Source: Actinomycetota bacterium | Lineage (GTDB): Bacteria > Actinomycetota > Aquicultoria > Aquicultorales > Aquicultoraceae | Assembly: GCA_018333515.1 (NCBI GenBank) | Contig: JAGXSZ010000023.1 | Coordinates: 1-64,000, forward strand | DNA: 64,000 nucleotides | Direction: 5' to 3' | Part shown: positions 22,740 through 60,542 of the stretch, piece after piece | How positions within the stretch are numbered: position 1 is the first letter of the stretch | Layout of the letters: each line of letters opens with the position of its first letter | The notes under the pieces: model-generated | Database searches by the model: none | What the model was told of the DNA's origin: nothing | Seen by the model: the letters and a program-made list of their open reading frames with translations, nothing else | Translations under genes and position numbers: made by a program

Positions 22740-23744
22740 CTATTTCTCCATGGGCATCTTTGAATCGCCGCCCCACTCATAGACGGACGCTTCGTAGTTT
22801 CTTACTTTCTCAAAGCCAACTGCTCTGAGGATCATGGATGCGTATCCAGACCTTATACCCATGGTTCAGTAGAGTATGAAGTCGTCTTCGGGCGAGATAC
22901 CGTAAGAGGCCATGATTTTCGTGATTTCCTCGGGCGTCTTCGGGGTGCCGTTTTCGTTGTGCAGGTCGAGCCAGAGCATCAATTTTGCTCCCTTGATGTG
23001 TCCGCCTCTCGGCTCTCCGGCTTTTTGCGAGCCCTTGAACTCACCCTCGGTCCGCACATCGAGCACGACCTGTTTGTCGAGGTTATCCAAGACGTAGGCT
23101 TTGGTAGCTATATAACTCTCGTCATAATCCTTGAGTTCAACACCGGTCGTAGGCTTTGGCTGCGCGGGCTCGTCGGTCACATCGTAGCCCAACTCTTTCC
23201 AGTACGAAAGCCCGCCGACCAGGAACTTGACGTTGTCCATGCCCGCCAGTGTCAATTGCCACACAGCCCTGCCGTCACCGCCCGGCCCCTTGAATACATC
23301 GGAATAAAAGACGACCGTCTTATCGTTGTCTATACCCAGCTCTTCCAATGTTTTCTTCAGCTCGGCTTTGTCTTTGATGGTTCCCCATCCCGGGTCTCCG
23401 GGTTTTCCGACCTTGTCCGAGAGCGCGTGAAGGCCGATACCTACAGCGCCCGGTATGTGCTCTTTCGCATAGATGTCGGGTTTATTGCAATCGAACAGGG
23501 CCAGCTCATCGCTGCCGAGCATCCCTTTTAGCTCCTGCGGCGTAATAAGGAAATCGTTGTTTTTGTAGACCGCGAGATCGATTTCTTTCGTCTCCGACGT
23601 TGCTGATTTACCGGCAACATCCGTGTTTTTGCCCGCCGAAGAAGACTTCGGCGCTGGTTCTTGCGCGCACCCGGCAACCGACAATGCGAGCAAAAAGCAT
23701 GCAATGAGCAGCGTCGCATGCTTTAGGCTAGACCGCGTTTTCAA
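22740..23744 (-). CDS. Selenocysteine-containing rhodanese lipoprotein (thiosulfate sulfurtransferase family)
   Basis: A 334-residue double-rhodanese protein with selenocysteine at the active site. A lipoprotein signal (LLIACFLLALSVAGC) anchors it outside the membrane. The first rhodanese domain covers about residues 50-170 (LFDCNKPDIYAKEHIPGAVGIG) and the second about 190-334 (VVLDVRTEGEF, then GHIKGAKLM). The catalytic loop after FILY has TGA (22866-22868) where the family has the sulfur-carrying cysteine. The frame continues with TMGIRSGYASMILRAVGF and a YEASVYEWGGD stretch, the conserved rhodanese C-terminus, to TAG at 22740. With SelA, SelB, SelD and tRNA-Sec in the same window, TGA is read as Sec293. 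The start is TTG at 23744 behind GGGAGG. It overlaps the TVP38 gene by 17 bases. Confidence 0.9.
22825..22868 (-). promoter_or_regulatory. Sec codon and candidate SECIS of the rhodanese gene
   Basis: The UGA at 22866-22868 is followed on the minus strand by UGGAU-ACGC-AUCCA, a five-pair hairpin whose loop is about 23 bases downstream, a suitable distance for a bacterial SECIS read by SelB. The loop lacks the usual leading G and the stem is short, so the exact element is uncertain. Confidence 0.5.
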
Positions 23745-24429
23745 TACTACCAACCTCCCCTTGTTTCCTGTCAGTCCAAACTTTCTTGAGCATCACCGCT
23801 AACGCGCTTAGGGCAAAGAGCATCAGCAATCCCGTGACCATCGTCTTGGTGGTGCCGGTCAGCATCCCCCCGATATAGGAATAGACGATAGTCGCTGGCA
23901 GCTGCCCCACGCCCGTCGCTATGAAAAACGACCAAAAATTCATAGAGGTCAACCCTGCCGCGTAGCTGACGATGTCGAAAGAGACGAACGGCAGCAAGCG
24001 CGCGATAAGAATCGCATACTTGCCGTAGTTTTCAAAGAAGACATCGACGCTTTTGAGCGCGGTGCGAGAAGTAAGCTTCTCCACCGCTTCGCGTCCGAAG
24101 TACTGGGCGATATAGAAACAGAGCACCGCGCCTGCCATCGCGCTCGACCACGACAGAATAGCACCCTTGACCCATCCGAAGAGGCCGGCGTTGGCGAACG
24201 TGATAAGAAAGGCCGGGAGCGGTGCGATTACCGACTGAAATACCATGAGGGCAAACGAGGCTATCGGCGCCCAGATGCCAAACCCCAAGATATAGCCTTT
24301 TACCAGCTCGACATCGAAATTGCTCATTATGAAGAAAGCCTGGTTGAAATTTACCTTGATAAAAGGTACAAACACATAGAGTAGTATAATTATAAGTAAT
24401 ACAAGCAATTTTCCTTTATAACCTTTCAA
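23728..24429 (-). CDS. TVP38/TMEM64 (SNARE-associated, DedA-like) membrane protein
   Basis: A 233-residue inner-membrane protein of the VTT family with about six hydrophobic segments. Family features are FQSVIAPLPAFLITFANAGLFGW (about residues 63-85), the FGREAVEKL segment, and ARLLPFVSFDIVSYAAGLTSM with the conserved arginine and proline. Relatives act as lipid scramblases or transport facilitators, and in bacteria are frequent neighbours of rhodanese and mercuric/selenite-type genes. Start is TTG 24429 after AAGGG. It is translationally coupled to the selenocysteine rhodanese, so the two probably work together in the envelope. Confidence 0.9.
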   Translation of the reverse strand: MKGYKGKLLVLLIIILLYVFVPFIKVNFNQAFFIMSNFDVELVKGYILGFGIWAPIASFALMVFQSVIAPLPAFLITFANAGLFGWVKGAILSWSSAMAGAVLCFYIAQYFGREAVEKLTSRTALKSVDVFFENYGKYAILIARLLPFVSFDIVSYAAGLTSMNFWSFFIATGVGQLPATIVYSYIGGMLTGTTKTMVTGLLMLFALSALAVMLKKVWTDRKQGEVGSIENAV

Positions 24430-24763: not shown

Positions 24764-25108
24764 CTACACATCTTCCTCAGATGGAACATGAGGTTCAACA
24801 AGAGCAATCAAGGCTGGTATATCCTTTTGAACTGTATCCCAAACCTTCACAAAATCGACTCGAAAATAATCATGAATCAATCGATTCCTCATGCCGACCA
24901 TATCGTTCCAGGGTATCTCGGGGTGTGCGTTCTTGAATTCCGGTGATATCTTGTTGGCTGCTTCGCCAATAATTTCGAGGTTTCTCATAATTGCGTCAGA
25001 ACGCAATTCGTCTTTTTGAAAGTTCTCCCATTCTAGACCACTTATGAACTTCCTTGTTCGCTTGGCGGCAATAAGAATATCCAACAAAAATGCTTCGTCA
25101 CGCCACAT
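24764..25108 (-). CDS. hepT: HepT-like toxin (DUF86 HEPN ribonuclease)
   Basis: A 114-residue HEPN-domain protein. The catalytic RX4HXY motif is present in MRNRLIHDYF (about residue 82), and the family stretch LEIIGEAANKIS precedes it. HepT degrades or cleaves RNA and is silenced when its partner MntA AMPylates the tyrosine of this motif. The start ATG (25108, MWRDEAF) lies inside the last codons of mntA, so the pair is coupled. Confidence 0.9.
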   Translation of the reverse strand: MWRDEAFLLDILIAAKRTRKFISGLEWENFQKDELRSDAIMRNLEIIGEAANKISPEFKNAHPEIPWNDMVGMRNRLIHDYFRVDFVKVWDTVQKDIPALIALVEPHVPSEEDV

Positions 25109-25415
25109 ACAAAACCTCTGTTGAATCAAGGATGTGCTTGCGGCGTATATAGTTTTCGCTTTGCTCCACAGCCTTCTTTTCTACAAGATCAACCTCGCGC
25201 TCAAATATCTCTTCGAGTTCCCCTTGCATACGCACTAGATCAAATAAGCTATACTTAGCTTCCTGGGTAAAGGAAACCATTACATCGACGTCACTATCAG
25301 GCCGGAAGTCCTCTCGAAGAACCGAACCGAATAGCGCGAGTTCTTGAATGTTCCATTTTCTGCAAAACTCAGCTACTTTTTTATAAGGTATTTTAATACG
25401 CGCTTTGATCTTCAT
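25098..25415 (-). CDS. mntA: MntA-like minimal nucleotidyltransferase antitoxin
   Basis: A 105-residue minimal nucleotidyltransferase. The active-site signature GSX10DXD is seen in LFGSVLREDFRPDSDVDVMV (about residues 29-48). It is the expected AMPylating antitoxin for the HepT protein encoded next. Complete length, ATG start. The pair sits at the edge of the second cassette-like island. Confidence 0.9.
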   Translation of the reverse strand: MKIKARIKIPYKKVAEFCRKWNIQELALFGSVLREDFRPDSDVDVMVSFTQEAKYSLFDLVRMQGELEEIFEREVDLVEKKAVEQSENYIRRKHILDSTEVLYVA

Positions 25416-25567: not shown

Positions 25568-26310
25568 AATCTCGCTGTATCGAGTAACCAATCGCTTTGT
25601 ATCCCTTGAGCCTTTTCTCAAACATGCGCACCAGCACAGGAACTTCAACATCAATATTTTCTTGCCGGCGAAGCTTCAACAAGGCGGTCAAAAAATATCC
25701 AAACATGGCCGCCATTCCCCGACCGGGAGCGCTCCAGCGCTGCCGGCACGCCCATCTCCTTGCAGGTCTGCAGAAAAGCAACGGCATCATCCCGCCACGA
25801 CGCTTTATCGAAGTCGACGGCAAGAATCTGACAGGTCTCATCGGATAAGAGCGGATATAGTCCAACAATATGCTTGCCTGTCAGGTGATTAAGGATAACC
25901 TGGTCGGTTAGGGGTAGAAGGTCACGGTATTCACACTGCGAACACTTGATTTTGGGTTTGCGGCAAAAGACCTTATGCCATTCATTGCGGCAGGACGGAG
26001 AGTAGCCGGATGAGCCGCTCTTCCCCTCCCAGCGAACGGCATACACGTCTTCGCGGCCGCGAAAAAGGCTACGAAACAACGCTATCTTTTCCTCAGTTGA
26101 GGAGCGGTTGGTAACGGTGAATAAATTTCCCTGCTGCAGGACTATGATTTCCGGGGCTTTTTGTTCATGCGGCAAGGATTCGGCTGGCGAGACAGCTTCT
26201 GTTTCCGCCAATCCAAGCAGCGTTTTCAGCCGGCTATTCTCAGCGCGAAGCCGTGCACACTCGGCCAAGGCCGCATCTAGTTGAAGCTGTAAATCCTCAT
26301 CCTTGCCCAT
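25566..26310 (-). pseudogene. Deletion remnant of a TOTE conflict-system primase-helicase
   Basis: The 5' part (26310 to about 25680) encodes a coiled-coil start, then a zinc-binding CRKPKIKCSQCEYRD segment. The archaeo-eukaryotic primase core follows, with catalytic pair AVDFDKASW and the later RSRSGNGGHVWIFF. Just after FFDRLVEAS the frame ends. About 20 bases on, a second frame encodes VEVPVLVRMFEKRLKGYKAIGY, the extreme part of the helicase half of the same family. The whole middle (several hundred residues, including helicase motifs) is missing. The simplest reading is one internal deletion that joined both ends out of frame. TOTE proteins are large anti-element effectors. Confidence 0.75.
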
Positions 26311-42344: not shown

Positions 42345-43694
42345 TTACTTCCCCCGGATTCTCAGACCCCCCGTATAGAGCTGCGAATTTCGTCCCCGAA
42401 CATATCCGACCAGCTCGACTCCGAGTTCGTAAGCTAAATCGATCGCCATATCGGTCGCCGCGGTCCGCGAAAGGATAATGGGGATACCCGCTTTCGCCGC
42501 TTTGACCACCACCTCGTATGAGATACGCCCGGTCGTCAACAGCATGACGTCCCGGTCGGCCTCATCGTCGAGAAACAAGCGTCCCAGAATCATGTCGACC
42601 GTGTTGTGGCGGCCGATATCCTGGCGCAACATCCACACCTTGTCATCCTTGACCAATGCCGAGGAGTGCATGCCGGGCCGGTGGCTCCGGCCTAAAAACT
42701 CTTTCATTAATTCCGGGATTCTCGCCGCCTCGACCGAAAAGCCCGAATCCGGCTTGCGGATGCCGCGCGTATCGCCGGGGTCGGTAAAGGAAAGCCCTTT
42801 GCCGCAACCGGAGGTCATAAAACGCCGGCCGGCCGTGACGCTCGCCCGCTGCCCGGCCTTTTTAAGTTCGATGCGCGCTTCGCCGAGACACGTATCGACG
42901 CGCAAACCCTTTATCTCATCGCGCGACTCCAAGATACCCTCGGCGACCATAAAACCACAAGCCAGCTCGTCGAGGTGCTCGAGGCTGCACTGCAACGTCA
43001 CTAACTCCTCGCCGTCCAGATAGATGGTTACCGGGCGCTCTATCGGTGGGCGCCGGTCGTCTTTTTTGTTCTTAGCCATCAATTCGGCGATCCCATTTTC
43101 CGCCTTGTCCAGGTCGTTTGAGGTATTTACGTTTATAAATGTAACATCGGCTCCTTCGAGATGGGCAAGCTCCGAACTCCCCACAATCCAGACGTTGAGC
43201 CGTGGAAAAATCGCCGCCACCTTGCGCTCGCCGCGCGCGAGTACCTCATCGATAGCCGGAATGCAGCGTTTGCCGTAGAACGCGAAGAGCGGCTCAAGAC
43301 CGCCGGCCGTCCTTGGAACCACAATGTCGGCCTGGCCGGTCAGCCCGGCCAAATACCGGATGACCCGCGGGTCGGCAAAGGGCATGTCTACGGCGAGGAC
43401 GAAATTCGTCTCGTACGACGACTCCTTCAAGCCGGTGCCGATGCCGCCGAGCGGACCCTGGTTCGCGACGGCATCCATCACGACCTTGGCGCCGGTTATC
43501 TCCAAAGGAATAGGCTGGTTCGTGACGACGATGACCTCGCTGAAGAGCGCCGACACATTATTTACCGCGCGCAAGAGCAACGGCTCGCCGTCGAACTCGA
43601 CCAGGTTCTTGTCGCGCCCCATGCGTCTGCTCTTGCCGCCGGCCACGATAATCGCGGCCATATTGAGTTTTCCGTCGCCCTCTTCCATAACCAT
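42345..43694 (-). CDS. MobA-FdhD fusion protein
   Basis: A 449-residue fusion. Residues about 12-200 are molybdenum cofactor guanylyltransferase MobA (IIVAGGKSRRMGRDKNLVEF, VMDAVANQGPLGGIGTGL, VDMPFADP). From about 225 to the end it is FdhD, the sulfurtransferase that activates formate dehydrogenase (VTIYLDGEELVTLQC, GFMVAEGIL, MTSGCGKG with the active cysteine, RQDIGRHNTVDMILG, SRTAATDMAIDLAYELG). Both halves look functional. The pairing puts guanylation and sulfuration of the formate dehydrogenase cofactor in one polypeptide. ATG at 43694 has no strong ribosome site; the family would start at ATG 43661. Confidence 0.92.
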   Translation of the reverse strand: MVMEEGDGKLNMAAIIVAGGKSRRMGRDKNLVEFDGEPLLLRAVNNVSALFSEVIVVTNQPIPLEITGAKVVMDAVANQGPLGGIGTGLKESSYETNFVLAVDMPFADPRVIRYLAGLTGQADIVVPRTAGGLEPLFAFYGKRCIPAIDEVLARGERKVAAIFPRLNVWIVGSSELAHLEGADVTFINVNTSNDLDKAENGIAELMAKNKKDDRRPPIERPVTIYLDGEELVTLQCSLEHLDELACGFMVAEGILESRDEIKGLRVDTCLGEARIELKKAGQRASVTAGRRFMTSGCGKGLSFTDPGDTRGIRKPDSGFSVEAARIPELMKEFLGRSHRPGMHSSALVKDDKVWMLRQDIGRHNTVDMILGRLFLDDEADRDVMLLTTGRISYEVVVKAAKAGIPIILSRTAATDMAIDLAYELGVELVGYVRGRNSQLYTGGLRIRGK

Positions 43695-43792
43695 ACTATT
43701 ATTATATTGATAACTTACTGTAAAATCCTAGCAATCCCCGCATAAAAGGGACTGCTACGCAAAATTTCTCCGCCCGCCGACCGGGACGCCGG

Positions 43793-44872
43793 CTACTCTC
43801 TCGATACCGCGTGCACATCGGTCGAATCGAACGACGTCGAAACGCGCATGCCTACCCGCAAGCCCATCTCATTGGCGGAGCGCTTGGTGACGAGGGCGAC
43901 CAACGCAAACCCGCACTCCGTCACCGCGCGATAGAACGCGCCCATATCGTACAACTTGGTTATCTCGCCCTCGAAATGATTGCGCATGCCCGTCTGGCGC
44001 TCGCTGTGGTCGGCGGCGGCGATATAGACATTCTCGGGACGGACAAAGAGCCAGACCTTAGCGGTGAGACCTTCCCCGCCGGCGACCTCTATCTCTTGGC
44101 CTTCGACCTCGACGACGGTGACTCCGTCGCGCGCGCCGGCGACCCTGCCTTCGAGGATATTCTCGACGCCGACGAGGTCGGCGACCATCTCGTTTACCGG
44201 ACGGTTCATCACCTCTTGCGCGGTGCCGACCTGCACGATTCGCCCTTCGTCCATCACGGCAATCCTGTCGGCGATCATTATCGCTTCGGTGCGCTGGTGG
44301 GTGACGTAGACCACGGTCACGTCGAGCCTATCGAGCACCTCCCGCAAGTCTTCGATGAGCGCCCTCTTAGTGGGAGGGTCGAGTGAGGCCATCGGCTCGT
44401 CGAGGAGTAAAAGCTCCGGTTCGAGGACGAGCGCTCGCGCAAGGGAGACGCGTTGCGCCTCGCCGCCGGAGAGATTGATCGAGGCACGCCCGAGTAAGTG
44501 CGCTACGTCCAGCATCCCGGCGACCTCGCGCACCCGGCTCGCTATCTCTTCCTTCGCGACTTTACGGACCTTCAGGCCGTAGGCGATATTATCGAAGACG
44601 GTCGTGTTAAAGAGGAGCGGCTCCTGGAAGACCATCGCCAGGCGCCGGCGGATATCGAGTTCGTCGCTAATCCCGCCGTTAAACGAAATCTTACCCGAAA
44701 CCGGCTTCTCCAGCCGCGCGATAAGCTTCAAAAGCGTGCTCTTGCCGGCGCCGTTCGGGCCGATGACGGCGAGCACCTCGCCCCGCTCGATAACGAGGTC
44801 ATCTATATCGGAGACGACCTTGTCCCCGTAGCGCTGCAAAAGATCGGCTATTCGGAGGTACGCTGCGCCCAT
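43793..44872 (-). CDS. tupC: Tungstate ABC transporter ATP-binding protein with TOBE domain
   Basis: A 359-residue ATPase. Walker A is GPNGAGKST (about residues 37-45), the signature is LSGGEAQRVSLARAL, and Walker B is LLLLDEPMASLDP. A C-terminal TOBE-type domain at about 270-350 (LFVRPENVYI, NHFEGEITKLYDMGAFYRAVTECG) may bind the oxyanion and set transport. It overlaps the permease gene by 25 bases. Tungstate rather than molybdate is inferred from the TupA-type binding protein and the riboswitch. Confidence 0.92.
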   Translation of the reverse strand: MGAAYLRIADLLQRYGDKVVSDIDDLVIERGEVLAVIGPNGAGKSTLLKLIARLEKPVSGKISFNGGISDELDIRRRLAMVFQEPLLFNTTVFDNIAYGLKVRKVAKEEIASRVREVAGMLDVAHLLGRASINLSGGEAQRVSLARALVLEPELLLLDEPMASLDPPTKRALIEDLREVLDRLDVTVVYVTHQRTEAIMIADRIAVMDEGRIVQVGTAQEVMNRPVNEMVADLVGVENILEGRVAGARDGVTVVEVEGQEIEVAGGEGLTAKVWLFVRPENVYIAAADHSERQTGMRNHFEGEITKLYDMGAFYRAVTECGFALVALVTKRSANEMGLRVGMRVSTSFDSTDVHAVSRE

Positions 44873-45567
44873 GCGGCCGCCCCCCTCTGCTGGTAGTGCG
44901 TGAGCGCGTAGGTCGCGGCAAACGTGATGGTAAGAAGGATTAAACTCAAAGCTATCGCCCGGCTGAAATCGCCCCGGCCTACCTGCTCGACGATGGCGGT
45001 CGTCAAGACCCGCGTCTGCCCGCTGATATTGCCGCCGACCATCATCACCGCGCCTACCTCCGATATTATCGCGCCAAAGCCGGCTATCACGGCGACGAGC
45101 GCGGTAATCCGCGCCTCTTTAATTAACGTGAAAAGCATCTGTGTTTTGGTCGCGCCGAGCGCGAGCGCCTGCAACCTGATTTTCGGGTTGAGCTGCTGGA
45201 TGGCCGAGATAATGACCCCGGTTACCAGCGGCAACGCGATTATGACCTGCGCGATGATAATCGCCGGGATAGAATACATCAGCCCTAAAAACCCGAGCGC
45301 GCCCGAGCGCCACAAAAAAATCGCCACGAAGAGGCCGACGACTACCGGCGGCAGTCCCATGCCGGCGTTGACGAGGCTTACTATAAGATTGCGCCCCGGA
45401 AACCTGGTGAGCGCGAGCAAAAACCCGAGCGGCACCCCCAAAATTATCGAGATAAACACCGCCGTCCCGGATGTCTGAAGCGAGCGCAGGGTCGCCTCGA
45501 CGACCAGCGGGTCGCCGCTGAGTATCAATATGACGGCTTGTTTGAAGCCTTCGAAAAGCAAATCCAT
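44848..45567 (-). CDS. tupB: Tungstate ABC transporter permease
   Basis: A 239-residue permease with about five membrane helices and the EAA-type loop QALALGATKTQMLFTLIKEAR (about residues 125-150) that contacts the ATPase. It groups with TupB/WtpB permeases that carry tungstate or molybdate. It is preceded by a strong hairpin that separates it from the binding-protein gene. Confidence 0.92.
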   Translation of the reverse strand: MDLLFEGFKQAVILILSGDPLVVEATLRSLQTSGTAVFISIILGVPLGFLLALTRFPGRNLIVSLVNAGMGLPPVVVGLFVAIFLWRSGALGFLGLMYSIPAIIIAQVIIALPLVTGVIISAIQQLNPKIRLQALALGATKTQMLFTLIKEARITALVAVIAGFGAIISEVGAVMMVGGNISGQTRVLTTAIVEQVGRGDFSRAIALSLILLTITFAATYALTHYQQRGAAAWAQRTSE

Positions 45568-45595
45568 AACGTTAGCTCACTGTTTATGCCTTTGC

Positions 45596-45625
45596 GACGG
45601 GCGGGGTCTTCCAGCCCCGCCCGTC
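45596..45625 (-). terminator. Intercistronic hairpin between tupA and tupB
   Basis: GACGGGCGGGG (45596-45606) and CCCCGCCCGTC (45615-45625) form a perfect 11-pair stem with an eight-base loop. No T-run follows. It probably protects the tupA transcript or attenuates read-through, giving more binding protein than permease. Confidence 0.6.
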
Positions 45626-45681
45626 GGCGTAGCCCTGATTTGCATTATCGCCATTCAAGACTCTAGGTTTGAAAATTCTTT

Positions 45682-46608
45682 CTACTTCTTCGCGTCCGGC
45701 ACGAAGAGTGCCTGGCCGAACTTATCCTTGCCGAACTCGCCGATAAGCTTCCGCCCCTCATCCGAGGTGAGAAAATCGATAAACTCCATCGCGCCGTCGT
45801 AGTTGACCTTCGGGAATTTGTCCGGGTTGACCGCGATGACGCCGTAGGGATTGAGAAGGTCTTTGCTCTTCTCTGTCAAAACGACGAGGTCGATATTGTC
45901 TTTCTGCACCAGATAGGTGCCGCGGTCGGCGAGCGTGTAGCCCTGCTTCTCGTTGGCTATGATGATGGTCTGCGCCATGCCCTGGCCGGTGCTGATGTAC
46001 GAACCGCCTCCCGGCTTGAAATAGACATCATCCGTCTTGACGCCGGCCTGCTCCCAAATCTTGATTTCTTTCTTGTGGGTACCGGAGTCGTCGCCGCGCG
46101 ATACAAACGGGTTGCTCGCCGGTAACGTGCTTTGCAACATGCTATGCAACCTGATTTTCTCGAACGCCGCAGCCGCATCGGCTGCGCCTTTGACGTTAGC
46201 CGGGTCGTTTGCCGGCCCGATGAGCACGAAATCGTTGTGCATGACGTCTTTTCTGACCCTGCCAAAGCCTGCGGCCATAAACTCGTCTTCGGACGCCCTG
46301 GCGTGCACGAGAAGTACATCGGCGTCGCCGCGCTCGCCCATCTTCAATGCCTCGCCGGTGCCGACCGCGACCGGTTTTACCGTTATCCCGGTCTTCTTGG
46401 TAAACGCCGGTAAAAGCTCATCCAAGAGGCCGGTATCTTTGGTGCTCGTAGTGGTCGCCAAGATTAGCGTCTGGTTAGACTTGGCCGCGCTTTTTTTGGC
46501 CGTGGTCGTAGTTGTGGCATCGGTGGCTTGCTGAGCCGAACAACCGGCAATCGCCATAACCGCCGTCGTAAGGACTATTGCGAGCAATACTAATACAATT
46601 CTTTTCAA
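45682..46608 (-). CDS. tupA: Tungstate-binding lipoprotein TupA
   Basis: A 308-residue substrate-binding lipoprotein. The signal ends at the lipobox MAIAGC. The mature part has the TupA signature LILATTTSTKDTGLLDELLPAF, MGERGDADVLLVHA and VSRGDDSGTHKKE, where the TTTS and SRGDDSGT loops bind tungstate or molybdate. Start is TTG 46608 seven bases after AGGAGG. It is the first gene of the transporter-cofactor operon and lies under the riboswitch-terminator module. Confidence 0.93.
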   Translation of the reverse strand: MKRIVLVLLAIVLTTAVMAIAGCSAQQATDATTTTTAKKSAAKSNQTLILATTTSTKDTGLLDELLPAFTKKTGITVKPVAVGTGEALKMGERGDADVLLVHARASEDEFMAAGFGRVRKDVMHNDFVLIGPANDPANVKGAADAAAAFEKIRLHSMLQSTLPASNPFVSRGDDSGTHKKEIKIWEQAGVKTDDVYFKPGGGSYISTGQGMAQTIIIANEKQGYTLADRGTYLVQKDNIDLVVLTEKSKDLLNPYGVIAVNPDKFPKVNYDGAMEFIDFLTSDEGRKLIGEFGKDKFGQALFVPDAKK

Positions 46609-46635
46609 TCCTACTCCTCCTCTGATAATCATCAA

Positions 46636-46889: not shown

Positions 46890-47795
46890 CTACGGTTTTA
46901 TCTCATCGACATCCAACGCTTCGATGAAGGACAAGAACGCGCCTGCCGACCGGGTCGGGACATGCTTGCTTACGACCAGATAGAGGTCGCGCGTGAAAGA
47001 GAAGCCCGGTATCTTAACGGTGACGAGTTCGCCGAGCTTCAGCGAACGCTCCGCCGCCCACTTGGAGACGATAGATACGCCGAGGCCGGCGCTGACCGCG
47101 TTTACCACAGCCTCGGTGCTGCCCAGCTCCATCACCACGTTGAAATCGTCGAAACTCATGCCGTGCGTAGTCAAGAAGCCCTCGATAGTCTGCCTGGTGC
47201 CGGAGCCCCGCTCCCTTATAATGAAGTCCGCGTTCCGCAGGTCCTCAAGGGTCACCGCTCGCTGTTTCGCCAGCTCATGGTCGGAAGGTGTGATAAATAC
47301 CAGCTCATCGTGGAGAAAGGCCCGTGACGTCAACTGGCCGGAGCTGAACTTGGCGCCGATGAGGCCCACCTGCAGCTCCCCTGAAATGACCTGCTCGGCT
47401 ATGTCGTTCGTGTCGCTTATCTTCAGTGTTATCAAAACATCCGGGAACTCGCGTTTGAATCTGCCGAGAAGTTTCGGGAGAACGTACTCGCCCGGAATCG
47501 TGCTCCCGCCGACCGCCAGGCGCCCCTTAACGGATTCGCCCAACTCGTCGAGCTGGTGCTGGACATTGTCGATTTGAGTCACTATCTGCAACGCGCTCGG
47601 GTAGAAGAGCTTGCCCGCTTCGGTAAGTTGTACTTTCTTGGTGCGCCGGTCGAGAAGCTCGACCCCTACGAACTCTTCGAGAGCTTGGATTTGCAGGCTT
47701 ACCGCGGGCTGCGACACACCCATCGACCTTGCGGCCGCCGAAAACGTACCCTTCTCGACGATGCTGACAAAAGCTCTAAGCTGGTTTATGTTCAT
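46890..47795 (-). CDS. LysR-family transcriptional regulator, possibly selenium-metabolism type
   Basis: A 301-residue LysR protein. The helix-turn-helix is in NINQLRAFVSIVEKGTFSAAARSMGVSQPAVSLQIQ style near the N-terminus, followed by a substrate-binding domain (IPGEYVLPKLLGRFKREFPDV, RERGSGTRQTIE). Closest in style to the group tied to selenium and formate dehydrogenase metabolism; this is judged by eye only. Start ATG 47795 lies five bases after GGAGG. It points in the same direction as the tup operon and may control it. Confidence 0.88.
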   Translation of the reverse strand: MNINQLRAFVSIVEKGTFSAAARSMGVSQPAVSLQIQALEEFVGVELLDRRTKKVQLTEAGKLFYPSALQIVTQIDNVQHQLDELGESVKGRLAVGGSTIPGEYVLPKLLGRFKREFPDVLITLKISDTNDIAEQVISGELQVGLIGAKFSSGQLTSRAFLHDELVFITPSDHELAKQRAVTLEDLRNADFIIRERGSGTRQTIEGFLTTHGMSFDDFNVVMELGSTEAVVNAVSAGLGVSIVSKWAAERSLKLGELVTVKIPGFSFTRDLYLVVSKHVPTRSAGAFLSFIEALDVDEIKP

Positions 47796-48023
47796 CATAT
47801 CCTCCAATAATTATTTATTATCATTATCGAACACATTATTTCTTATCATTATAGCAATTTTTAATACTCGGCGCCAATTTTGTCAAGATGAAAACCGGCC
47901 TTTTATGTGCGCAAAACGGCCTGGACTGCGCCGCAAATCCTAAGAACATCGCACCGATCAAATGCTTGATTATTTGTTCGAAGCCCTATATCATAAAGTT
48001 AACCATTTTACTTAAGTTTATAG

Positions 48024-55780: not shown

Positions 55781-55876
55781 TGGCGGAGGTGCGTGGGAAT
55801 CGAACCCACCAACCGAGGATTAACCCGGCCGACTGGTTTTGAAGACCAGCTGAGCCACCAGGCCCAATCCACCTCC
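55781..55876 (-). tRNA. selC: tRNA-Sec (anticodon TCA)
   Basis: A 96-base selenocysteine tRNA. The acceptor stem (GGAGGTG/CACCTCC) is extended, a six-pair D stem TGGGCC/GGCTCA has a four-base loop, and the anticodon stem CTGGT/ACCAG holds loop CTTCAAA (TCA). A long variable arm, the T-stem GTGGG/CCCAC, discriminator G and an encoded CCA follow. The 6-4 D arm and TCA anticodon exclude serine tRNA. It lies 65 bases downstream of selB in the same direction. Confidence 0.95.
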
Positions 55877-55941: not shown

Positions 55942-57846
55942 CTACCGGACTATCCTCGAGTCCCCGACGCGGCGCGTAACACCGGTCATATCAAAATAGT
56001 TTAGCAGAGGGATGACATATTTTCTAGAGGTATCAAAGAGTTGCCGCACGTCAGCGGGGCTAATCTGCTTGCCGCTGAAATTCTTCTTGATCTCGGCTTT
56101 CGCTTTCTCTACAAGCCCGGCTTCAAAGTACATATTCGGGGCGATACGGACGAGCTTATGCTCCCGGGTAAGCAGGTCGGCAAGCGAATTCAACTTCTTC
56201 AAGTCGACTGCGAACTCTTTCGCCAACCAGGTCGTCTCCGGCGGGCCATACGCGCCGTCGACGATGGCCTTTGTCAGCCTCTCGATGAGCGCTTCATCCT
56301 CGGCGCCGACCGTTACCTGGGCTTTGGCGTGAGCGACCTGGGCTTTATCGACGACCACTTTGCCGGACGCCTGCGCGTGGGCGACAAAAGCATCGAACTC
56401 CTTGTCGGACATCCAGTCGAAAAGCTGCGACCTGACAAGCTGCTTGCTCATCCACGGGTTGAGCGGATTTTTCTTGAAATTATCGTTGAGGAAACCCTCG
56501 AACGCCTTGATGTGGGCATCGAACTTGTCCTTGAGGATGTAGTTGTCGCTCTTGTCGATGGTCATCACGAAGACTTCCCCGCTCTCCTTGAGCGCGCCGA
56601 GGCCTTCCCTCACGCGCTCCTCATCGAGTTCGGAGCGGACCCAGAGTTGTTTCTCGGTCATAAAACCGGCTGCTTCGGCAAGGTAGAGGCGGATGACGTC
56701 GACGCTCTCCCCAATCAAGAATATCTCGCAGCGGTGTGTGAAATCGTCTTTATTAGCCAGCCTAAACTTCACGGGGTGGCTGTCGAGAATCCGGCCGCCG
56801 CCTATGGTCTGGACAGGCGAGTAGCTGCGGATGACAAAGTTATCGTTATATTTCGGGATGACCGGCTGCTCCAGCCGCAACTGGACAAAGGCCGTATCCC
56901 CGGGTTTTAAGACCTCGCGGTCGGTCAGTACGACCCGGCCGAGCACCTCGCTGGTACCGTGGTGGACCCTGACGCGCGCCCGGTTCTTCAGCTCCTTAGG
57001 GGCGCTCTCCAGCAGCTTGAACTGCCCATCGAGCATAAACGACGGGGTCAGAAAGCCCGGCGCCAGCACGACGTCGCCGCGTTCGATATCGTCTTTTTCC
57101 AAACCGACGAGGTTTAGCGCGACGCGCTGACCGGCGATAGCGATACCCTCTTTGCTCCCGTGTACCTGCACATTTCGTACCCGTGCCTCTTTGTCGGCGG
57201 GATAGACGTGTACCTTGTCCTCGGGGTGTATCTCGCCCGACCATAGCGTCCCGGTAACGACGGTTCCCGCGCCCGACATCGTAAAAACCCGGTCTACGGG
57301 CAAGCGAAACGGGGCTTTGTCCTTGCGCGGCAGTATGTTCCGGGCAATCCCGTCGATTACCTCTTTGAGCTGCTCCAAACCCATGCCCGTCTTGCCCGAG
57401 ACCGGCACGATAGGCGCGTCTTTGAGGCTGGTCTTTGAGATAACGCCCCGGATTTCTTCTTCTACCAAGGGGAGCCAATCCTCGTCGACGATGTCGGCCT
57501 TGGTCAGCGCGATGACGCCTTCTTTGATACCGAGAAGGTCGACGATGGCGAGGTGCTCCTCGGTCTGCGGCATGACCGAGTCGTCGGCCGCGACAACAAG
57601 GAGGACTATATCTATGCCGGTCGCGCCGGCCAGCATATTCTTGACGAAGCGCTCATGGCCGGGGACATCGACGATGCCGAGCTTCTGGCCGCTTGGCAGC
57701 TCGAACTGGGCAAACCCCAGCTCGATTGAGATACCGCGCTTCTTCTCTTCTTCGAGCCTATCGGTATCGATGCCGGTTAGCGCCTTAACAAGCGTCGTCT
57801 TGCCGTGGTCGATGTGGCCGGCGGTTCCCAGAATCAATGGTTTCAT
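55942..57846 (-). CDS. selB: Selenocysteine-specific elongation factor SelB
   Basis: A 634-residue SelB. The G-domain is GTAGHIDHGKTTL (G1), DVPGHERF (G3) and LTKADI (G4), with domains II and III to about residue 375 and winged-helix domains in the remainder (ending FDTSRKYVIPLLNYFDMTGVTR), which bind the SECIS hairpin. It delivers Sec-tRNA to UGA. Start overlaps the selA stop by four bases. The encoded protein confirms that the in-frame TGAs in this genome can be decoded. Confidence 0.96.
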   Translation of the reverse strand: MKPLILGTAGHIDHGKTTLVKALTGIDTDRLEEEKKRGISIELGFAQFELPSGQKLGIVDVPGHERFVKNMLAGATGIDIVLLVVAADDSVMPQTEEHLAIVDLLGIKEGVIALTKADIVDEDWLPLVEEEIRGVISKTSLKDAPIVPVSGKTGMGLEQLKEVIDGIARNILPRKDKAPFRLPVDRVFTMSGAGTVVTGTLWSGEIHPEDKVHVYPADKEARVRNVQVHGSKEGIAIAGQRVALNLVGLEKDDIERGDVVLAPGFLTPSFMLDGQFKLLESAPKELKNRARVRVHHGTSEVLGRVVLTDREVLKPGDTAFVQLRLEQPVIPKYNDNFVIRSYSPVQTIGGGRILDSHPVKFRLANKDDFTHRCEIFLIGESVDVIRLYLAEAAGFMTEKQLWVRSELDEERVREGLGALKESGEVFVMTIDKSDNYILKDKFDAHIKAFEGFLNDNFKKNPLNPWMSKQLVRSQLFDWMSDKEFDAFVAHAQASGKVVVDKAQVAHAKAQVTVGAEDEALIERLTKAIVDGAYGPPETTWLAKEFAVDLKKLNSLADLLTREHKLVRIAPNMYFEAGLVEKAKAEIKKNFSGKQISPADVRQLFDTSRKYVIPLLNYFDMTGVTRRVGDSRIVR

Positions 57847-59252
57847 CTCGCCTCCACCCGCTTGAGCGCTTCGAGAATCTCGCGCTCTTCGCCCTCTTGG
57901 ATGGTTCGCGGGTCGAGCAAGACCGCGTCTTCTTTTATCCGCACGATGATAGGCGGCTCGTTCGCGCGGAGCATCTCTTCTAAGCGGTTGGCGCTCGCTT
58001 TCGTGCTCGTAATCGAGACGACCGTAGTGGGAAGCTCGGCAAGCGGGAGCGAGCCGCCGCCGACCTTCGAAGTCTCCGGCTCCGTCGTGACGGTAAAGGT
58101 CTCGCCCAGGTTCGAGGCGAGCAGCCGCGCTATCTTCTTGGCCCGCGCTTTGAGTTCTTCAGCCGGGGAGGTTATCATGCGCAGCGTCGGGTTTACCGCG
58201 CGGATATTGTCCATATCGAGGTAGTCCATGAGGGTCGCCTCGATGCCCGCGAGCGTCATCTTGTCGACGCGGACCGCGCGGGCGAGCGGGTGTTTTTTCA
58301 TCCGTTCGACGTACTCGGCCTTGCCGACGACGAGGCCTGCTTGCGGACCGCCGAGTAGCTTGTCGCCGCTGAAGGTGATGATGTCGACGCCGGCGCGCAC
58401 GCTCTCCTGGACGGTCGGCTCGTATTCCACGCCGTAACGCGACAGGTCGATGAGGACGCCGCTGCCCAAATCCTCCATGACGGTCACGCCGACTTCGCGC
58501 CCGAGTTCGACCAGCTCTTCGAGCGACGGCTCGTGCGTAAACCCGACGATTCTAAAGTTGCTGGTGTGGACTTTGAGCAAAAGCGCGGTCTCATCGGTGA
58601 GCGCCGCGCGATAATCGCGGATATAGGTCTTGTTGGTCGTTCCGACCTCGCGCATAATCGCCCCGCTCTGGCTCATCACATCGGGGATGCGAAACGAGCC
58701 GCCGATTTCGACGAGCTGGCCGCGCGAGACTATCGCCTCTTTGCCTGCGGCGAGCGCGGTCAGCGCCAAAAAGACCGCTGAGGCGTTGTTGTTGACGACC
58801 ATGCCGGCCTCGGCGCCGGTTATCTTGACCAGGATTTTCTCTATATGGCTGTGACGGGAGCCGCGCGCGCCTTTCTCCAGGTCGAACTCGAGGTTCGAAT
58901 AGTTGGAAGCCGCGTTTACGACCGCCTCGATGGCCGATTTGCTCAATATGGAGCGGCCGAGGTTGGTGTGGATGACGACGCCCGTCGCGTTTATAAGCCG
59001 CTTCAGGCTGAGCGCGTATTGCCGCCTCAGCCACGCTTCGAGTTCATCCAAGTATGACATTACCGATAGGTCGAACTCTTCCAGGTCCTTTTCGGAGAGG
59101 GCCAATATCAGGCCGCGCTTGTCGTCTATGACTTTGCGCACGCCCTCCACCACCAGGGGTCTGGGATAGGTCGCCGAGAACTCTTTTACCTTGGGAAAAT
59201 CGAGGAACTCGTCGACCTTGGGCAACTGCCTTAAATATTTATTCTTAGACAA
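57843..59252 (-). CDS. selA: L-seryl-tRNA(Sec) selenium transferase SelA
   Basis: A 469-residue PLP enzyme that converts Ser-tRNA(Sec) to Sec-tRNA(Sec) with selenophosphate. The pyridoxal-binding lysine is in FSGDKLLGGPQAGLVVG (about residue 290), with LINATGVVIHTNLGRSILS and GMVVNNNASAVFLALTALA upstream. Overlaps selB. It follows selD in the same direction with a 250-base gap. Confidence 0.96.
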   Translation of the reverse strand: MSKNKYLRQLPKVDEFLDFPKVKEFSATYPRPLVVEGVRKVIDDKRGLILALSEKDLEEFDLSVMSYLDELEAWLRRQYALSLKRLINATGVVIHTNLGRSILSKSAIEAVVNAASNYSNLEFDLEKGARGSRHSHIEKILVKITGAEAGMVVNNNASAVFLALTALAAGKEAIVSRGQLVEIGGSFRIPDVMSQSGAIMREVGTTNKTYIRDYRAALTDETALLLKVHTSNFRIVGFTHEPSLEELVELGREVGVTVMEDLGSGVLIDLSRYGVEYEPTVQESVRAGVDIITFSGDKLLGGPQAGLVVGKAEYVERMKKHPLARAVRVDKMTLAGIEATLMDYLDMDNIRAVNPTLRMITSPAEELKARAKKIARLLASNLGETFTVTTEPETSKVGGGSLPLAELPTTVVSITSTKASANRLEEMLRANEPPIIVRIKEDAVLLDPRTIQEGEEREILEALKRVEAR

Positions 59253-59504: not shown

Positions 59505-60542
59505 CTACACGACCTCGATGATGCCGGGTGCGCCCTCATCGATTCCGCCGATGACCGCCCTCGTGCCGACCCCGCGCACCTCGAGCGCCGCGAGCAGAGC
59601 TTGGAGCTTAGCTTCGGGAACGCTTATGAGCAGGCCTCCGGAGGTCTGCGGGTCGAAGAGCATCTCGGGCGGGTAGGCGGTCTTGGTCCTGAAGACAACC
59701 GAGTCGCCCAGGTACGCCTGGTTGTCCCGCGCACCGCCGGGGATAATCCCCTTTATCGCGATCTCTATCGCCAGCTCCCAGAGCGGAATCTTCTGGGCCT
59801 CAATCGTCGCTTTAAGCCCGTTTACGGCTATCATCTCTTTCAGGTGCCCGAAGAGTCCGAAGCCGGTGATATCGGTGCAAGCGTTGACGCCGACCTCCAT
59901 CATCGCTTCCGCCGCCGCGCGGTTGAGCGTCGCCGCCGTCTCGATGGCGGGCATGATGTCGTCTTCGGTGACTATGCCGCGCTTCAGCGCGCTCGCGAGA
60001 ATCCCCATGCCGAGCGGTTTCGTAAATACGAGAACATCCCCCGCTTTGACGTTACTGTTGGTAACGACTTCATCTAAGCGAACGATGCCGGTCACGGAAA
60101 GCCCGTATTTCGGCTCGTTGTCTTGGATCGTATGCCCGCCGACGATGACCGCGCCCGACTCTTTGACCTTGTCGTGCCCGCCCTTGAGTATCTCTCCGAG
60201 GTGGTCGAGGCCGAGGCTGCACGGGAACGCCGCAAGATTTAGCGCGGTCAGCGGTCTCCCGCCCATCGCGTAGATGTCGCTTAGCGCGTTCGCCGCGGAT
60301 ATCTGCCCAAAAAGGTACGGCGTGTCGACGACAGGCGGAAAAAAGTCGACCGTCTGCAGAAGCGCGTAGGTGTCGTCGAATTTATAAACGGCGGCGTCAT
60401 CGGAGGTATCGAAGCCGACGAGCAACTCCTCGGCCTCCTCCGGCGGCAGCCAGCTTAGCGCCTGTTTGAGGTCCCCCGGACCCATCTTGGCGGCTCAACC
60501 GCTCTTCGTCGCGTATTGCGTTAAACGTATCGGCTCGCTCAC
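59505..60542 (-). CDS. selD: Selenide, water dikinase SelD, itself a selenoprotein
   Basis: A 345-residue SelD making selenophosphate from selenide and ATP. The true start is GTG 60542 behind AAAGGA. The N-terminus reads SEPIRLTQYATKSG, then TGA (60495-60497), then AAKMGPGDLKQ. Sec16 replaces the catalytic cysteine, three residues before the catalytic lysine as in other SelD proteins. The rest has the ATP-grasp-like PurM fold (GFDTSDDAAVYK, GGHTIQDNEPKYGLSVTG, FDPQTSGGLLISV). Starting at the internal ATG would lose the active site. First in the selD-selA-selB-selC group. Confidence 0.95.
60470..60497 (-). promoter_or_regulatory. Sec codon and candidate SECIS of selD
   Basis: UGA at 60495-60497 is followed by GGUCC-GGG-GGACC, a five-pair hairpin (six with a flanking G-U) whose G-rich loop begins about 18 bases after the UGA. 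The position and leading G in the loop fit a bacterial SECIS. Confidence 0.6.

Follow-up and report, generated by a model that had tools for sequence, protein, structure and literature searches.

The window analysed here, a 64-kb stretch of DNA from an Aquicultoria genome, carries on its minus strand a gene for a rhodanese-like protein (22740..23744), which begins with a TTG codon (23744) just downstream of a GGGGAGG ribosome-binding site, ends at a TAG stop (22742-22740) and would encode 334 amino acids if its one internal, in-frame TGA (22866..22868) is read through. This TGA corresponds to residue 293 counted from the TTG and is separated from the TAG stop by 41 residues. We refer to the gene as the Sec-rhodanese gene, after the selenocysteine (Sec) predicted at this position. 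A gene for a membrane protein of the VTT/TVP38-TMEM64 family lies upstream on the same strand (23728..24429) and overlaps the rhodanese start. Further upstream of this pair are a HepT-like toxin-family gene and a TOTE-conflict primase-domain fragment (24764-25129 and 25651-26310, minus strand), which suggests a mobile or defence-gene neighbourhood.

When the TGA is read through, two stretches of the product match the Pfam Rhodanese model (E 2.6e-30), as in two-domain rhodaneses of the tandem type (COG2897, PF00581 x2). The context of residue 293, with the TGA read as Sec, is ...DDFILY-U-TMGIRSGY..., and the codon aligns with the catalytic cysteine in the C-terminal domain of solved thiosulfate sulfurtransferases (TSTs), for example 1e0c, 8k55 and 1uar. 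Together with the TGT and TGC codons found at the same place in a sister clade, this bears out the proposal of an earlier note on this DNA that the TGA stands exactly at the rhodanese catalytic cysteine. The C-terminal loop is otherwise without a catalytic cysteine, the Sec codon falling at exactly that residue, and the N-terminal rhodanese domain has none either. The active loop, U-T-M-G-I-R-S, is TST-like, with Arg at +5, unlike the CG(S/T)GVT loop of MST. A predicted Sec in place of the loop cysteine is the defining trait of the Sec form of this tandem rhodanese family. An AlphaFold model, built with Cys for Sec from a 30-sequence alignment, had a mean pLDDT of 87, and its best PDB matches were thiosulfate sulfurtransferases with TM-scores of 0.8-0.86 by target length; YnjE-like folds were also among the structural matches. 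No NCBIfam model reaches its cut-off on the protein: NF041203 rhodanese_LYCAU (CxU) scores 28.7 bits against 115, NF045694 TsoB 19.5 against 805, NF040901 ExtH 25.9 against 200 and NF045521 rhoda_near_glyco 45.7 against 145. Because no model covers the family at cut-off, genes of this kind are presumably annotated as truncated.

At the N-terminus, a hydrophobic segment ends in a lipobox (...LLALSVAG-C) whose cysteine is residue 26 (23667..23669, minus strand). All Sec orthologues whose N-terminus is complete have a conserved lipobox (VAGC/SGCG/SACS) at the start of the predicted mature protein, in agreement with the lipoprotein signal described earlier, and from this signal peptide we infer that the protein is an exported lipoprotein.

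Besides the source genome, orthologues were found in about 24 genomes of Aquicultoria and two Firmicutes orders, at 52-91% identity, a count to which order- and phylum-wide searches contributed in addition to a search of relatives and a collection scan. Five further Aquicultoria genomes hold orthologues at 70-91% identity, each with exactly one in-frame TGA, and the collection scan recovered others in Desulfoscipio, Sporotomaculum, Desulfosporosinus and a MAG labelled Clostridia (taxon names here being record labels, some of them MAG labels). All orthologues of at least 52% identity that reach the site have TGA there, in both phyla, whereas relatives at 40% identity or below have TGT or TGC at the same residue, with the exception of L007. 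In the tree, the 19 Sec rows group in a single clade with support 99/98, and next to it stands a Cys clade with the same context (L046, L056, L063, L047, L057 and L058; about 33-40% identity). The alignment with cysteine rhodaneses called for earlier shows conservation on both sides of the TGA and a Sec/Cys exchange at the catalytic residue itself, the invariant residues of the whole family including the active-loop Tyr-U/C..Gly-x-Arg-Ser.

Several additional copies were seen in the course of these searches. L007 (176-1093, minus strand), from another family of the same class, encodes a distant rhodanese lipoprotein at 31% identity with a TGA at the same catalytic site, followed by a canonical-looking hairpin whose GGU loop lies about 20 nt away, and is possibly an independent conversion to Sec. 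The Sec-rhodanese copy is truncated in a Desulfosporosinus (L039 6001-6711) and apparently frameshifted in a Desulfoscipio MAG (L038 6001-6892), a gene fragment in L101 (936-1013) keeps part of the RNA element described below, and genome G190 has a second, partial copy (L079 5155-5508).

Mean pairwise identity among the orthologues is 83% in the 41 residues after the TGA compared with 66% in residues 61-292, and after the TGA pN falls far below pS. In these alignments, therefore, protein-level constraint is tighter on the 41 codons than elsewhere in the gene, across 20+ genomes from two phyla. A true stop at the UGA, leaving a 292-residue truncated protein and a downstream frame that is a relic or a pseudogene, would fit with the standard ORF call, which ends at this codon, and with the few degraded copies that exist (L039 and the fragment in L101), but it is extremely unlikely given this constraint and given that the downstream part has the same rhodanese catalytic loop and C-terminus as the Cys homologues. 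The rhodanese C-terminus that the earlier note had read in these 41 codons is thus conserved in the orthologues, and the pattern named there as a possible refutation, TGA-bearing homologues with no conserved sequence downstream, is contradicted by a downstream part that is the best conserved of all. These comparisons are strong evidence that the UGA is read through, whatever the residue inserted.

In every Sec orthologue the TGA is directly followed by ACN-ATG (TGA ACN ATG), an arrangement that could also allow two polypeptides to be made, with termination at the UGA, re-initiation at the ATG three bases on and a 40-residue C-terminal peptide completing the fold in trans. However, the catalytic nucleophile would then be lost, Cys homologues are continuous through this region with K, V or G replacing that M, and the RNA element and the Sec machinery would be left unexplained, which makes this arrangement very unlikely.

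Genes for Sec decoding lie in the same window and on the same strand: tRNA-Sec with the anticodon TCA (55781..55876), the Sec-specific elongation factor SelB (55942..57846), the Sec synthase SelA (57843..59252) and SelD (59505..60542). The host's Sec set is thus complete in the window, with all four components named in the earlier note located between 55781 and 60542. SelD has an in-frame TGA of its own (60497-60495), located where SelD proteins are known to carry Sec (KSG-U-AAK), so that it is predicted to be a selenoprotein itself; this TGA was missed by the single-TGA scan because it is too close to the SelD start, and was found by reading upstream. Formate dehydrogenase of the source genome also has an in-frame TGA at a known Sec site, and the hairpins of both genes have G-rich loops at about 20 nt. 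When the 64-kb window was scanned for other single-TGA read-through frames, no convincing further selenoprotein emerged. SelB was present in every tested carrier of the Sec-rhodanese, a co-occurrence that discriminates little because SelB is common in these groups.

Other observations were made around these genes. A hairpin with a GGG loop follows the SelD UGA, and a plain ORF caller would start SelD too late. A Mo/W-cofactor riboswitch (RF01055, 46675-46822, minus strand) lies upstream of a block (42345-46635) that holds transport genes (TupA-like, TupB-like and WtpC-like) and a gene for a MobA/FdhD-like protein, with a selenium-associated LysR regulator (46890-47807) beside them.

Strong evidence for read-through as such would also suit insertion of Trp, Cys or Gly at the UGA through a reassigned code or a suppressor tRNA. 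Against this, the source genome encodes tRNA-Sec, SelA, SelB and SelD, the further in-frame TGAs seen in it, those of SelD and formate dehydrogenase, stand at known Sec sites, and the RNA element is specific to the Sec-rhodanese gene; we regard the insertion of another amino acid as extremely unlikely. With the downstream constraint, the conserved TGA and the decoding machinery, a pseudogene, a true stop, a reassigned code and a split gene were each rejected or considered unlikely, and we are highly confident that this is a real selenoprotein gene in which the host machinery would read UGA 22868-22866 as selenocysteine.

Two adjacent hairpins follow the UGA on the minus strand. Hairpin 1 (22830..22852; GGUC-UGGAU..AUCCA-U-GAUC, with a bulged U on the 3' side) has a loop that starts 22 nt after the UGA, and hairpin 2 (22809..22829; CUCAGAGC-AGUUG-GCUUUGAG), whose loop starts 44 nt after it, is nearly nucleotide-invariant between the phyla. 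In orthologue pairs below 75% protein identity, synonymous codon identity in codons 302-313, which hold the 3' arm of hairpin 1 and the whole of hairpin 2, is 0.3-0.45 higher than expected, which at a background sd of 0.04 places it about 11 sd above the gene, while the rest of the gene is about as expected. Protein-preserving codon shuffles of 22 sequences showed both hairpins to be stabler than expected in nearly all of them, with p reaching 0.13 in two sequences for hairpin 1 and staying at or below 0.047 in all 22 for hairpin 2; in dinucleotide shuffles of the source genome's 48-nt piece alone, stability was no greater than that of the shuffled sequences. Some pairs of hairpin 1 have changed in a compensatory manner, A-U to U-A among them, and in the Desulfosporosinus group its register is shifted; in hairpin 2, G-U/A-U exchanges leave the pairs intact. 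Covariation of the element in RNAalifold is weak to modest because the element is nearly invariant. The element is absent from Cys relatives. Across 28 genomes, a covariance model of the element picked up all intact Sec-rhodanese genes, together with one degraded copy and one weak match on a Cys relative, the remainder being noise.

The bacterial SECIS model, as set out in the relevant part of PMC13188914, has a loop of 3-9 nt at 16-37 nt from the UGA, a G in its first two positions and an MFE of -7.5 or lower. Hairpin 1 fits this model in position and stability, but its loop lacks G at positions one and two; the GU loop of hairpin 2 fits, but its distance of 44 nt lies outside 16-37. A hairpin element is thus present after 22866, where the earlier note suggested looking for a SECIS hairpin, though in the form of two adjacent hairpins, neither of which fully fits the published model. 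Hairpin 1 would occupy the classical SECIS place, with hairpin 2 as an extra and strongly selected part. Two alternative folds compared by eye, one with a GUAU/AUAC stem that encloses AGRUCUGG and the other with a long lower stem in which ACNAUGG pairs with GCCGUUG, were discarded, each being broken in several orthologues.

The coupling of the rhodanese to the TVP38-family gene, pointed out in the earlier note, extends across both phyla: the two genes are co-operonic in nearly all orthologues. In most Firmicutes loci they cluster with a radical SAM protein (ArsS TIGR04167, or a BioB-like protein), TIGR04282 and TIGR04283 glycosyltransferases, a C_GCAxxG_C_C protein and an LPG-synthase-TM flippase-like protein, and sometimes with an AhpD-like TIGR04169 protein; the Cys rhodaneses of L080 and L081 sit with TVP38 in the same type of cluster. 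By gene context, the rhodanese/TVP38 pair thus probably belongs to a larger arsenosugar-type gene set, an observation that goes beyond the earlier note. We use "arsenosugar biosynthesis" as it stands in NCBIfam family names, for a product that is putative here. The BioB-like radical SAM protein that takes the place of ArsS (L036 4156-5160, plus strand, with homologues in L037-L039, L068-L070, L072, L073 and L078) scores below every NCBIfam cut-off. In Aquicultoria the rhodanese/TVP38 pair stands alone and the arsenosugar-type genes are not adjacent to it; in the source genome, another contig, C30 (L087 5787-9890), holds together a flippase, a C_GCAxxG protein, a glycosyltransferase, ArsS and a nucleoside-phosphorylase-like gene, the last named by eye from its sequence. 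ArsM is present in the source genome and exceeds its cut-off in 14/19 carriers compared with 1/14 control genomes; it was not found in 3/19 carriers. Our literature searches returned no paper describing a rhodanese/TVP38/arsenosugar-type cluster.

These observations can be assembled into a working model, in which SelA, SelB, SelD and tRNA-Sec would decode the UGA under the RNA element directly downstream, thereby producing a protein of 334 residues, a tandem rhodanese of the TST type, that would be exported and lipid-anchored outside the cytoplasmic membrane, beside its co-transcribed TVP38-family partner. By analogy with the TST family, the selenolate would attack a sulfane-sulfur donor (thiosulfate, polysulfide or similar), carry the sulfur as a selenenyl persulfide (Se-SH) and pass it to an acceptor; the signal peptide is the reason for placing this chemistry outside the membrane. 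Gene linkage tentatively points to a role for the Sec-rhodanese in serving the ArsM/ArsS/glycosyltransferase/flippase set, whose probable product is an exported, glycosylated metabolite that bears arsenic or a chalcogen. An alternative role, also compatible with a selenoprotein and one that we consider quite possible, is extracytoplasmic handling of sulfane sulfur or of selenite/tellurite, of the ExtH/YnjE kind; it would have no connection with arsenosugar-type chemistry, the gene linkage then reflecting shared stress regulation. The weak similarity to ExtH, the YnjE-like folds and the solitary rhodanese/TVP38 pair of Aquicultoria speak for it, as does a DedA-family protein linked to selenite resistance (a reference cited in PMC10127716); the arsenosugar-type linkage in most Firmicutes loci examined and in the Cys sister clade speaks against it, as do the ArsM and ArsS encoded by the source genome. 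More speculatively, and in our view unlikely in its entirety, the stacked pair of hairpins might constitute a new class of bacterial Sec-recoding signal, in which the second hairpin, with a GU loop some 45 nt from the UGA, has kept its sequence between phyla. On this speculative view the gene product would be a selenium rhodanese that faces the outside of the cell and holds sulfane sulfur (or selenium) on its selenium, and this would be a dedicated step of an arsenosugar- or selenosugar-like metabolite pathway common to Aquicultoria and to Firmicutes that reduce sulfate or live syntrophically.

What the analysis offers is a step from scattered marine fragments of selenium rhodaneses to a well-supported family in genomes. 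Because its carriers include or adjoin cultured anaerobes (Sporotomaculum, Desulfosporosinus), the role of Sec in a sulfurtransferase becomes testable; at the same time a predicted selenoprotein is connected, through gene neighbourhood, with a set of arsenosugar-type genes that is widespread yet undeciphered, and a recoding signal conserved in nature is described that fits the standard bacterial SECIS model poorly.

Among known systems, the thiosulfate sulfurtransferases A. vinelandii RhdA (1e0c), bovine rhodanese (1rhd) and M. tuberculosis CysA/SseA share with the window protein the two domains, a catalytic residue in the C-terminal domain only, the kind of active loop and the predicted fold, but the window protein has Sec for Cys and is a predicted secreted lipoprotein. 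The Cys sister clade is alike in architecture and, where the N-terminus is complete, in its lipobox, and differs in its Cys codon (TGT/TGC), its lack of the RNA element and its identity of about 33-40%. E. coli YnjE and Geobacter ExtH are likewise exported multi-domain rhodaneses, but they are Cys-dependent and belong to other operons, and the ExtH model scores far below cut-off on the Sec-rhodanese; YnjE also lies in a gene block with TVP38-family genes. The families of NF041203 (CxU) and TsoB NF045694 are rhodanese-fold selenoproteins too, with a different domain make-up, different Sec motifs and scores far below cut-off. Closest are the marine COG2897/SseA Sec-rhodaneses, which are on record for the tandem kind since 2005: the pertinent sections of the metagenome papers give three Sec-containing COG2897 rhodanese sequences from the Sargasso Sea (PMC1088965) and further ones from the Global Ocean Sampling set (PMC2398784), in line with the earlier note's mention of proposals from metagenomes, and those of recent reviews list several rhodanese selenoprotein forms, of which "Rhodanese-like form 4" has a UxxG motif (PMC13188914, PMC9312934). 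These marine proteins are tandem rhodaneses with Sec for the catalytic Cys and UxxG (here U-T-M-G), predicted by the same Cys/Sec logic. They are metagenome sequences, and their descriptions, in the sections concerned, mention neither a lipid anchor nor an operon with TVP38, and neither a cluster of arsenosugar type nor an element of two hairpins. Sec-rhodaneses as such were thus already known, and it is the surface lineage, its gene neighbourhood and the two-hairpin recoding signal that appear to be new.
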